From Sulfurospirillum sp. (lineage in GTDB: Bacteria > Campylobacterota > Campylobacteria > Campylobacterales > QNZT01): 32,909 nucleotides of DNA. Positions 5,370-32,907 of the stretch are shown here, piece after piece (the first letter of the stretch is position 1; each line of letters begins with the position of its first letter). The stretch covers positions 1 through 32,909 of the forward strand of contig JANTHT010000005.1 of the NCBI GenBank assembly GCA_024762235.1, read 5' to 3'. The notes beneath the pieces were generated by a model. The model searched no databases and had not been told where the DNA came from. It worked only from the letters and a program-made list of their open reading frames with translations. Both the position numbers and the translations under genes were made by a program.

Positions 5370-5537
5370 GCTTATCCTTTTGTTAACCTTTTGCTGCTAT
5401 TTTAACCTTGTAACAGATCCGTAACAGACGTGCAAAGCGTTATGCCGGAGGCATCACAGGTTATCCGAATATCGGCTATTTTAGAGAAAAGTAACATAGA
5501 TTCAGGTAAAATATTTTACGAAAGAAGGAGAAAGCTG

Positions 5538-22212: not shown

Positions 22213-22273
22213 TGATTGTTTTCTTGAAAAGGAGCAAAGCCCCTTCTCAATTCATTGCAACTAAAGCTTCGGC
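22213..22273 (-). repeat. Copy A of ~60-bp intergenic direct repeat
   Basis: tgattgttttcttgaaaaggagcaaagccccttctcaattcattgcaactaaagcttcggc; near-identical to 22289-22348. Confidence 0.9.
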
Positions 22274-22288
22274 TCTCGCCGAGATGCC

Positions 22289-22348
22289 TGATTGTTTCCC
22301 TGAAAAGGAGCAAAGCCCCTTCTAATTCATTGCAACTAAAGCTTCGGC
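22289..22348 (-). repeat. Copy B of ~60-bp intergenic direct repeat
   Basis: tgattgtttccctgaaaaggagcaaagccccttctaattcattgcaactaaagcttcggc; differs from copy A by a few bases near the left end and one 1-nt indel. Period 76 bp. Confidence 0.9.
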
Positions 22349-27134: not shown

Positions 27135-27215
27135 TAAAGTGTTACGAATTTTCACTTTAAAAAATCCACTTTTCCCAAATATGTTTCAAATATTCACAAT
27201 CAGGAAAGCGTGATT

Positions 27216-28199: not shown

Positions 28200-30776
28200 C
28201 TATTTCATCATCTCTTCAAGCATCTCAGGCTCTACCTGGTCGAAGTTGAGATATTTGTAGACTTTGTCCATCATATCTGGCGTGATTTTTTTACGCATGA
28301 TGGAGAGATACTCCTCTTTGGTCGGGATGCGTCCCAGCAGTGCCGCTACTGCAGCCACTTCCGCGGAACCGAGATAAACCTGCGCACCTTTACCGAGACG
28401 GTTGTCGAAGTTTCTGGTAGAGGTGGAAAAGACCGTCGCATTGTCTGCAACACGTGCCTGGTTACCCATACAGAGTGAACATCCCGGTACTTCGGTTCTG
28501 GCACCCGCAGTTCCGAAAATCGCATAGTAACCCTCTTCTGTCAGAGTCTTCTCATCCATCTTCGTCGGCGGTGCGATCCAGAGTTTGGACTTCACAACAC
28601 CCTCACCCTTGAGTACTTCACCCAGTGCACGGAAGAGACCGATATTGGTCATACAGGAACCGACAAACACTTCGTCGATCTTGTGCGGTCTGTGTGTACT
28701 CTCGAGTACCTCCGTCAGCGTCGCGACATCATCCGGATCGTTCGGACATGCGACAATCGGCTCTGTCACTTCATTCAGATCGATCTCGATAACCGCTGCA
28801 TAGCTTGCATCTTCATCTCTTTCGAGCAGTTCAGGGTTTTCGATCCACGCTTTCATTTTGTCGGCACGTCTTTGCAGCGTCTGTGCATCCTGGTAGCCGT
28901 CTTTAATCATCTGCTCGATCAGTGCGATATTGGATCTGAGATATTCGATAATCGGCTCTTTGTTCAGTTTGACGGTACATGCAGCTGCACTTCTCTCGGC
29001 CGACGCATCCGCCAGTTCGAACGCCTGCTCACACTTCATGTCAGGCAAGCCTTCGATTTCAAGGATTCTTCCGGCAAATACATTTTTCTTACCTTTTTTC
29101 TCGACAGTCAGAAGGCCTTGCTTGATCGCGAAATAAGGAATCGCATTGACAAGGTCTCTCAGAGTAATGCCCGGCTGCATCTCCCCTTTGAACTTGACCA
29201 GTACAGATTCCGGCATCGTCAGAGGCATCATGCCCGTTACCGCGGCAAACGCCACCAGTCCGGATCCTGCGGGAAATGAGATTCCGATAGGGAAACGTGT
29301 ATGGGAGTCACCACCCGTACCGACTGTATCGGGAAGTACCATTCTGTTCAACCAGGAGTGGATAATACCATCACCAGGTTTGAGGATGACCCCTTTTCTG
29401 CTGGTCCAGAAAGGCGGCAATTCATGCTGGAGCTTGATATCTGCAGGTTTTGGATAGGCTGCCGTATGGCAGAATGTCTGCAGTACCAGGTCGGCACCGA
29501 AAGTCAGCGCCGCCAGCTCTTTGATCTCGTCTCTGGTCATCGGACCTGTCGTATCCTGTGAACCGACTGTCATGACGACCGGCTCACAGTAAGTACCGGG
29601 TTTGACACCTTCCATACCTGCCGCTTTACCGACCATCTTCTGTGCCAGGGTAAACCCTTTGCCGTCATCTTCAGGCATTTCAGGATGGATAAACTGCTCA
29701 CTTGCACCCAAGCCCAGCGCTTCACGTGCTTTGGATGTCAATCCCTTACCGATAATGAGGGGAATACGTCCTCCGGCACGCATCTCATCCGGAAGTGTGT
29801 TTGGTTTGAGTTCAAACTCACTGACCACTTTGCCATCTTTGTAGATTTTGCCTTCATAGGGCTTGACCGTGATCACATCGCCCATGGAGAGCTCGGAGAC
29901 ATCCGCTTCGATAGGGAGACATCCGGAATCTTCGGCAGTATTGAAAAAGATAGGCGCGATAATACTTCCGATCACAACACCACCGGTTCTCTTGTTCGGT
30001 ACACCCGGAATATCATGTCCCAGATGCCACTGTACAGAGTTGATACCCGATTTTCTCGAACTACCTGTACCAACAACGTCACCTACATAAGCCAGTGGAT
30101 GTCCGAACTCCTCTTTGAGGCGCTTGATCGTACCGATAGGATCTTCCATCTTCGCTGTCAGCATAGAGTTGGCATGCAGGGGAATATCCGATCGCGTAAA
30201 GGCTTCGGAAGCGGGAGAGAGATCGTCGGTATTGGTTTCACCCGGTACCTGGAAAACCGTCAGTGTCATCTCTTCGGGAAGTGGATCTTTGGAGGTGAAC
30301 CACTCCGCGTTCGCCCACGATTCGATCACCTCTCTGGCATAGGCGTTGCCCTCATCCATCAGATTCTTGACATCATTGAACGCATCGTAGACAAGAATCG
30401 TATGTTTCAGCTCATCGGCAGCTGCCTGCGCAACCTCTACATGTTCACTTTTCAGTGCTTCGACGAGAGGTCCGACATTGTAACCGCCCAGCATCATACC
30501 GAGGATCTTGATCGCATCCACTTTGTCGATCGCCTTGCAGGTCGCATCTCCGGTAACGATCGCGTTGAGAAAGCCCGCCTTGACATAGGCAGCATCATCC
30601 ACACCGGGATTGATATGGTTTGTAAACAGGTCCAGCAGATACGCCTCTTCGGGAATCGGATCCTGTTTCAGTAACTCTACCAGTTCCGCAGTCTGCTTCG
30701 CTGTCAGTGGAAGGGGTGGAACGCCCAGTTTCGCGCGCTCTTCTGTATGTGCTTTATACTCTTCTATTAAACCCAT
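28200..30776 (-). CDS. acnB: Aconitate hydratase B / 2-methylisocitrate dehydratase
   Basis: 858 aa; [30 protein letters not shown] (Fe-S Cys); [20 protein letters not shown]. Confidence 0.97.
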
Positions 30777-30805
30777 GGTTCATCTCCTTGCAAAATATCT
30801 CTACG

Positions 30806-30833
30806 ATTATACTGCAATGTCCGTTGAAGTCAA
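30806..30833 (-). promoter_or_regulatory. Near-consensus sigma70 promoter of acnB
   Basis: - strand TTGACT(30828-30833)-16-TATAAT(30806-30811); predicted TSS ~30799; 5' UTR ~23 nt with AAGGAG SD. Confidence 0.75.
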
Positions 30834-30839
30834 ATCATC

Positions 30840-30887
30840 TGTTACCATTTGTTACACTAATAATTTTAAAGGTTACTATATGTTACA
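30840..30887. promoter_or_regulatory. Array of four TGTTAC-like boxes upstream of acnB -35
   Basis: + strand TGTTACC 30840-30846, TGTTACA 30850-30856, GGTTACT 30871-30877, TGTTACA 30881-30887. Start-to-start spacing 10/21/10 bp. Confidence 0.75.
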
Positions 30888-30909
30888 ACGATCCGCAGAA
30901 AACGCAGTG

Positions 30910-32907
30910 TCAGACCAGTATCTCACGCTGTCCTTTGGCGTTGGGTGAAGAGATGACACCGGTCAGTTCCAGCTGTTCCACGATCCGTGCTGCACGGTTG
31001 TATCCTATCTGAAGCCGTCGCTGCAGATAGGAGATAGAGGTCTTTTTATCGGAGAGTACGATACTTTTGGCCTCTTCGTAGAGTTCATCGAAGTCGTCGT
31101 CGCCGCCCTTTTTGACATCGTCTGCACCAGTGATCATCAGCGAACCGGGTTCGTTGAGAAAAGTCTCGTCATACTGCACTTCACGCTGTGACTTCAGAAA
31201 TTCGACGATTGTTTCGATCTCCCGTTCGGTGATGAAGGGCGCATGCAGACGGATCAGTCCCGACGTCCCCGGAGGGGTAAAGAGCATGTCACCCCGCCCC
31301 AGCAGCGACTCTGCACCCGTAGCGTCGAGGATCACCTTCGAGTCGATCTTCTGCCCTACTTTAAATGAGATACGACTGGGAAGATTCGCTTTGATCAGAC
31401 CGGTCACGACATCGACCGAAGGACGCTGTGTCGCGACGATCAGGTGGATACCGCTCGCTCTGGCCATCTGTGCCAGTCTCGCGATGTAGAACTCCACATC
31501 TTTCCCGCTGGTCATCATCAGATCGGCCAGCTCGTCGATGATGACGACAATGTACGGAAAGGTTTCATACCCCTCTCTTTTCGCTTTTTCATTGTAGTTT
31601 TCGATATTTTTCGTTTTCGTCTTACTCATGAGTTTGTAACGCTTCTCCATCTCGACCACCATGTTCGCAAGTGCCAGGATCGCCTGTTTGGCCTGCGTGA
31701 TGACAGGTGTCAGCAGGTGGGGAATGTCGTTGTATATCGAAAACTCCAGCATCTTCGGATCGATCATGAGCAGTTTCAGATCGTCTGGAGAGTTTCGGTA
31801 GAGCAGCGAGACCAGCATGGCGTTGATACCGACCGACTTACCGCTTCCCGTAGTACCGGCGATGAGCAGGTGCGGCAACTTTTTGAGATCGGTCACGAAC
31901 GCATTGCCGACGATATCTTTGCCCACCGCCATCGTCAGCGGTGAAGCCGCCTTCTGGAATGTCTGGCTCTGGAGAATATCTTTGAGATAGATCGTATCGA
32001 TCTCTTTGTTCGGAATCTCGATACCGACGACATCTTTGCCCGGTACCGGCGCCTGGATACGGATCGTCTGCGCTTTGAGCGCCATCGCGAGATCGTCCTG
32101 AAGCGTCAGAATCTTGGAGACTTTGATATGGGCATCGGGACGGAATTCGAAAGTGGTGACGACAGGCCCTGAATAGGTCGCGACGACATCACCGGTGATC
32201 TTGAACTGCGCCAGCTTCTCCAGCAGGTCGACGATCTTCTGATCGATCTCCGCTTCGTTGATATGGTGGCGTTTTTTGGGCGCTGAATCGAGAAAATCGA
32301 GATAGGGAAGTTTGAAATTTTTGGGTTTGCGGATCTTCGCCCGCTTGTCGGTCTGTGCGAGATGGCGCTTGTTCTCTGCGATCTCTGTCACGAGATGGGC
32401 TTTGGGCTTCTGAGACTCCGGTGCCGCGTGCTCTGCGGCAGGTCTCTGATGCAGCTGCGTCAGATCTCTCTCCAGCTCCCGGCTCTCTTGACGGATTTGC
32501 GCGATACTCTCTTCGGGTACGCTCTCTTTCGCACGAGAGTGCGTTCCGCCTCCGGACAGCGGCTCCTGCTGTAAAATCTCTTCGATGCTACCGTGATATT
32601 CGAGTGTATCGTCGGAAACATCCTGCCGTTTTGCGGAGTACTCCTGTGCCGGGCGGGTGATACGCTGTGGCGCGGGAGCCGGTGTCGACGGGGCCATCTG
32701 TTCGTGAACCACACCGCCCGGGGATATACTTCGCGGTATCAGATCCTTCAGTGCCGCAAACTTCTCAGCCACCTCATCTTTCAGGCGTCTGAGATACTCC
32801 CGTATTCCCAGAGCGAGTGAAAAGTTGTCGAGTGTGGCGTTGGCCAGAAACGCCGCGGAGGTGAGCAACAGGCCGAAGATCACGACCCAGATCCCGACAC
32901 TGCCGAC
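30910..32907 (-). CDS. ftsK: DNA translocase FtsK/SpoIIIE, N-terminus truncated by window edge
   Basis: Walker A IAGTTGSGKSVGIN; IDELADLMM; C-terminal gamma winged helix RRLQIGYNRAARIVEQLE. Frame stays open to the edge (VGSVGIWV-VIFGLLLTSAAFLA, a TM helix), so GTG 32883 is not the real start. Confidence 0.95.
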   Translation of the reverse strand, partial: VGSVGIWVVIFGLLLTSAAFLANATLDNFSLALGIREYLRRLKDEVAEKFAALKDLIPRSISPGGVVHEQMAPSTPAPAPQRITRPAQEYSAKRQDVSDDTLEYHGSIEEILQQEPLSGGGTHSRAKESVPEESIAQIRQESRELERDLTQLHQRPAAEHAAPESQKPKAHLVTEIAENKRHLAQTDKRAKIRKPKNFKLPYLDFLDSAPKKRHHINEAEIDQKIVDLLEKLAQFKITGDVVATYSGPVVTTFEFRPDAHIKVSKILTLQDDLAMALKAQTIRIQAPVPGKDVVGIEIPNKEIDTIYLKDILQSQTFQKAASPLTMAVGKDIVGNAFVTDLKKLPHLLIAGTTGSGKSVGINAMLVSLLYRNSPDDLKLLMIDPKMLEFSIYNDIPHLLTPVITQAKQAILALANMVVEMEKRYKLMSKTKTKNIENYNEKAKREGYETFPYIVVIIDELADLMMTSGKDVEFYIARLAQMARASGIHLIVATQRPSVDVVTGLIKANLPSRISFKVGQKIDSKVILDATGAESLLGRGDMLFTPPGTSGLIRLHAPFITEREIETIVEFLKSQREVQYDETFLNEPGSLMITGADDVKKGGDDDFDELYEEAKSIVLSDKKTSISYLQRRLQIGYNRAARIVEQLELTGVISSPNAKGQREILV

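Follow-up and report, generated by a model that had tools for sequence, protein, structure and literature searches.

Four near-identical boxes lie in the short intergenic region in front of acnB, the first gene of a tricarboxylic acid (TCA) cycle cluster of a Sulfurospirillum strain. This raises two questions: what kind of operator do the boxes form, and which regulator might bind there? Both were approached by analysing the window, i.e. the whole stretch of 32,909 nucleotides containing the cluster, together with related genomes of the class.

The ftsK-acnB intergenic region

By inspection, the genes of the cluster are arranged in the order acnB-mltG-icd-mdh-fumC-sucC-sucD-oorDABC. The open reading frame identified in this way as acnB (aconitate hydratase) occupies positions 28200 to 30776 of the minus strand. 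It is separated by an AT-rich gap of 133 bp (30777-30909) from another minus-strand open reading frame, named ftsK-like by inspection (30910-32883), which forms the upstream boundary of the gap. The plus strand of the gap contains the boxes TGTTACC, TGTTACA, GGTTACT and TGTTACA, starting at 30840, 30850, 30871 and 30881, respectively, with the sequences and positions given in the initial annotation. A promoter scan also recovered the sigma-70-type acnB promoter described there, TTGACT-16-TATAAT (30806-30833, minus strand, 11/12 matches), past whose -35 hexamer the first box begins after 6 bp. It was the sole promoter match in the region, and all distances from the start site given below refer to the start predicted from it. 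For a sigma-54 promoter, no match better than 3 mismatches was present in the gap, which is not above chance.

The boxes are halves of a conserved inverted repeat

A search with AcnB showed that 586 stretches encode relatives, of which 80 were collected; counts for acnB upstream regions refer to 78 of them. In the upstream DNA of these relatives an ACA followed TGTWAC at an offset of N11 in 57/96 cases. The offsets adjoining N11 were found once each (N10 in 1/96), and the next commonest, leaving aside the self-overlap of TGTWACA, accounted for 11/96. What the relatives conserve is thus an inverted repeat of 17 bp, TGTWWC-N5-GWWACA, called the dyad below. The four boxes resemble direct repeats only because the difference between TGTTAC and TGTAAC falls on a degenerate position.

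Read on the sense strand of acnB, the four boxes make up two dyads. The proximal dyad, TGTAACAAATGGTAACA (30840-30856, minus strand), has the form TGTAAC-AAATG-GTAACA and matches the consensus at 12/12 positions, while the distal dyad, TGTAACATATAGTAACC (30871-30887, minus strand), has the form TGTAAC-ATATA-GTAACC and matches at 11/12; both are inverted repeats given the W degeneracy. They start at -80 and -111 from the acnB ATG and, relative to the predicted transcription start, are centred near -49 and -80, respectively. In other words, the two dyads are 31 bp, or approximately 3 helical turns, apart.

The same object emerged when all trinucleotide pairs at gaps of 0-20 were counted for each upstream set without a template. 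TGT-N11-ACA was the top gapped pair upstream of acnB (66/78, expected 4.3), of the ATP-citrate lyase gene acl (30/30, expected 1.7) and of nuoA (16/26, expected 1.3), and it was prominent upstream of icd (22/30); it was absent from the top gapped patterns upstream of gltA. Dyads matching at least 11/12 positions were present in 57/78 acnB, 21/30 acl, 18/26 nuoA and 12/29 icd regions, where shuffles gave 0.3-0.9, a null that ignores the relatedness of the sequences. Over 1.26 Mb of DNA from relatives, dyads occurred at a background rate of 0.03 per 300 bp.

Upstream of acnB the most conserved position of the dyad was -110 to -124 from the start codon, and many relatives, including the sister genomes L007-L009, had a second dyad at about -79 to -83. 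These positions are held in most genera having them, although much of the other upstream DNA differs between genera. Inverted forms found among the relatives include TGTAACTATCCGATACA and TGTTTCACATGGTTACA. Where dyads were paired (n=60), the spacing was 42 bp in 30 cases, followed by 31-33 and 63 bp, all close to whole helical turns; the vector strength was 0.84 at 10.5 bp. The helical phasing originally noticed for the single boxes is thus borne out at the level of dyads, and the comparison of the gap across relatives proposed in the initial annotation found the boxes conserved at fixed distances, albeit as inverted and not as direct repeats.

Other promoters with the element

Two dyads precede acl in several families and in the same genome (contig C118), most often 42 bp apart at -151 and -109. 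Upstream of nuoA a perfect dyad was found in 15/26 regions, including that of the same genome (C1:22479). Within the window, icd is preceded by a weaker dyad, TGTGAATATTTGAAACA (27182-27198, minus strand, 10/12), starting at -175 from its ATG. This sequence is identical in L293 and has related forms in L282 and L297, and the type TGTG.A-N5-GAAACA recurs in most icd upstream regions. The proposal of a dedicated array at the first gene of the TCA cluster therefore needs some qualification: a phased regulatory array does lie before acnB, but "dedicated" is too narrow, as the element is also found upstream of acl, nuoA, icd and ispDF-cemR.

At the last of these promoters, TGTATAAT-TTC-GTAACA or a shifted dyad was present in 54/58 genomes (shuffles 0.5). 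The copy overlaps the -10/start region, its left half reaching into the -10 hexamer, so that part of the conservation may serve the promoter. The position of the dyad suggests that CemR, the product of cemR, may regulate its own synthesis. No dyad at 11/12 or better was detected in 22 gltA upstream regions, including those of inferred Campylobacteraceae-like genomes, and nuoA of inferred Arcobacter-like genomes had no clear dyad, the best being a single 11/12 match. Although gltA was included as a negative control, it is among the published targets of CemR, so this null result was counted against an assignment of the dyads to CemR.

Pattern scans of the same genome gave 7 perfect dyads compared with 2 for the reversed control. 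Three lie outside genes (acnB, nuoA and a gap between thioredoxin and molybdopterin genes), whereas the four inside genes are probably due to chance.

Several further repeats were recorded. The third intergenic copy just mentioned is a perfect palindromic dyad, TGTTACTTAAAGTAACA (L092, 1501-1517; C1:2039), between a thioredoxin-like and a molybdopterin oxidoreductase gene. Another perfect dyad, TGTTACTTTTTGTAACA in L236 (genome G047), is located close to the 5' end of a TonB-receptor-like gene and faces a malic enzyme gene. Between the fliW-like and bamD-like genes of the window (5410-5496) there are three GTAACA boxes, the first two forming TGTAAC-N6-GTAACA, whose spacing departs from that of the dyad by one base. 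The fumC-sucC gap (22213-22348) holds two near-identical copies (35 + 25 nt) of TGATTGTTTyCyTGAAAAGGAGCAAAGCCCCTTCT...AATTCATTGCAACTAAAGCTTCGGC, spaced at 75-76 bp and each with a possible AAGGAGCAAAGCCCCTT hairpin.

CemR as the candidate regulator

For HP1021 the published box is TGTTWCW, and among the Cj1509 boxes the strongest is TGTTACA (PMC6052347), in agreement with the TGTT[T/A]C-type boxes named in the initial annotation. The boxes at 30850 and 30881 are exact TGTTACA, the one at 30840 (TGTTACC) is without the final W and the one at 30871 (GGTTACT) differs at position 1. The half-site of the dyad is the same as the published box, down to the W degeneracy. The protein most likely to bind the dyads is CemR, the orphan response regulator of the HP1021/Cj1608/Abu0127 family. 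Deletion of CemR in C. jejuni lowers most TCA enzymes, and the CemR protein of A. butzleri has been shown to bind nuoA-N and to activate it (PMC11334517); the published direct targets are gltA of C. jejuni and nuoA of A. butzleri. The boxes reported so far are single heptamers, with no dyads reported at oriC (PMC6052347, PMC8266642, PMC11334517), and the Cj1509 consensus of C. jejuni was considered too relaxed to predict sites reliably in silico (PMC6052347).

As presumed earlier, the genome encodes an HP1021 orthologue. It is located directly downstream of ispDF (C34:9044-9934) and comprises 297 aa. Its receiver is atypical in that the phosphorylated Asp is replaced, while Cys27, the cysteine common to HpCemR and CjCemR, is kept. 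According to orthologue comparison the last 30 residues are near-invariant and comprise the helix-turn-helix. The match to Pfam HTH_8 (Fis-type) is partial, scoring 19.2 bits where the cut-off is 22 (22.2 with neighbours), and no recognisable Pfam match to an AAA+ domain was obtained. When the AlphaFold model (mean pLDDT 87.6) was compared with known structures, NtrX, NtrC4 and NtrC1 gave the best full-length fold matches. CemR can be described as an NtrC-like protein in shortened form: its receiver is atypical, its central domain is degenerate and its C-terminus carries a helix-turn-helix of the Fis type. NtrC relatives without the sigma-54 loop are known to regulate sigma-70 promoters (PMC10274813).

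Full-length CemR matches are present in approximately 145/150 genomes of the class, and with a regulator so nearly universal, co-occurrence hardly separates CemR from another universal regulator. In group g16, two CemR-negative genomes are without the element and two CemR-positive genomes keep a weak form (10/12), a difference that is only suggestive. The genomes G007 and G117 (family f6) have neither a full-length CemR match nor an AcnB match and are thus uninformative in this respect. CemR of the Sulfurovum-type genomes L223-L230, L232 and L233 does not possess Cys27, so that redox sensing may differ there.

Alternative explanations

The two halves of the dyad also permit a reading as tandem TGTTAC half-sites 10-11 bp apart, bound by an OmpR/PhoB-type regulator. 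This was suggested by the common orientation of the boxes in the window and their 10/21/10 spacing, and the sister genomes L007-L009 retain a distal element resembling a direct repeat. While both arrangements fit the window, the relatives decide for the inverted one: TGT-N11-ACA is the top pair in three gene sets and is what the 78 relatives keep upstream of acnB, and the helix-turn-helix of the candidate regulator is of the Fis/NtrC type and not an OmpR winged helix. The direct-repeat reading was rejected because the relatives conserve the inverted form, and we consider it very improbable. Even a little less probable are operators of the CRP/FNR type or NifA type (TGT-N10-ACA) or sigma-54 upstream activator sites. 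Their TGT...ACA ends are alike and a NifA-like sigma-54 activator is encoded elsewhere in the genome (C24), but the spacing found was N11 rather than N10, the acnB promoter is of the sigma-70 type and the gap contains no good sigma-54 promoter; this reading was likewise discarded. The probability that the boxes are a functionless chance cluster appears negligible. The short gap is indeed AT-rich, and TGTTAC is over-represented in the non-coding DNA of the window generally: the window contains 15 copies against 7.66 expected, a number reached by 0/100 shuffles, with 11 copies in 2,371 non-coding bp and 4 in approximately 30.5 kb of coding DNA. However, three exact copies within 133 bp have a Poisson P of about 5e-6, so that chance hardly accounts for the cluster, and the distances from the acnB start are fixed across many genera.

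A more serious competitor, though still an unlikely one, is another phylum-wide regulator of TCA, reductive TCA (rTCA) and respiration genes which binds the dyads, their likeness to the CemR box being coincidental. It would be compatible with the absence of clear dyads at the counterparts of the confirmed CemR targets, C. jejuni gltA and A. butzleri nuoA, in the related genomes searched, and the universality of CemR deprives co-occurrence of its value. Against it stand the identity of the half-site with the measured HP1021/Cj1509 box down to the W degeneracy, the element at the promoter of the cemR operon itself in 54/58 genomes, and the fit of the regulon with CemR physiology. Moreover, the helix-turn-helix of CemR is near-invariant, like the site.

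A proposed model for regulation by CemR

We therefore prefer the view that the boxes represent a pair of CemR operators upstream of acnB, a prediction of binding from sequence to which we give a probability of roughly 70%. Most likely one CemR dimer would occupy each 17-bp inverted repeat. Two dimers, centred at about -49 and -80 and approximately three turns apart, would lie on the same face of the DNA and might jointly bring RNA polymerase with sigma-70 to the promoter of acnB. Activation rather than repression is indicated by the location of the dyads upstream of the -35 hexamer, which is typical of activators, and by the published mutants. The input signal may be oxygen or the redox state. 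The element upstream of acl, icd and nuoA would place acnB within a regulon of TCA/rTCA and complex I genes, and the dyad in the -10/start region of ispDF-cemR could provide feedback on CemR itself. The odds seem to us slightly better than even for the full scheme, in which CemR would be a redox-sensing shortened activator of the NtrC type acting on phased pairs of 17-bp dyads, coordinating acnB, acl and icd with complex I and limiting its own synthesis by negative feedback.

The regulator and its half-site were already known; the dyad, its phasing and the set of acl, acnB, icd, nuoA and cemR promoters appear to be new with respect to the literature searched, in which we found no description of a regulator of the rTCA cycle in Campylobacterota. 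A fixed, phased 17-bp dyad would make the CemR regulon predictable from sequence and allow exact mutations to be defined. It would also connect the enzymes of the rTCA cycle, the CO2-fixing route of many free-living Campylobacterota, with the sensing of oxygen or redox state. If true, this would amount to a transcriptional switch for rTCA carbon fixation in Campylobacterota of vents and sediments.

Comparison with known systems

The proposed operators share with the known CemR regulon the half-site TGTT[A/T]C(A), an orthologue with Cys27 adjoining ispDF, and TCA and Nuo target genes. They differ in that the boxes are halves of a 17-bp dyad occurring in helically phased pairs, and in that chemolithoautotroph relatives carry these dyads in front of acnB, acl, icd and nuoA. 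For the published targets gltA (Campylobacter) and nuoA (Arcobacter), the search of related genomes yielded no clear dyads.

With tandem OmpR/PhoB half-sites the array has in common repeats of approximately 10 bp on one helix face upstream of the -35 hexamer, but what the relatives conserve is the inverted orientation, and the candidate regulator does not belong to the OmpR type. TGT...ACA ends also occur in the sites of CRP, FNR-like proteins and NifA (TGT-N10-ACA).

The geometry resembles that of the NtrC family, whose operator is TGCACC-N5-GGTGCA, with sites at glnA paired about three turns apart; binding of a Fis-type dimer to a dyad of 17 bp is the arrangement typical of NtrC. TyrR boxes, which may also be compared here, have the form TGTAAA-N6-TTTACA. 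The dyad described here is likewise 17 bp long with N5, its paired sites are about three turns apart, and the candidate regulator has a Fis-type helix-turn-helix. However, the half-site sequence is unlike that of NtrC, and CemR possesses neither a recognisable AAA+ Pfam match nor a phosphorylatable Asp. In contrast to classical NtrC activation, the acnB promoter is of the sigma-70 type, with no good sigma-54 match in the gap. NtrC of R. capsulatus provides an example of an NtrC-like protein that acts with sigma-70.
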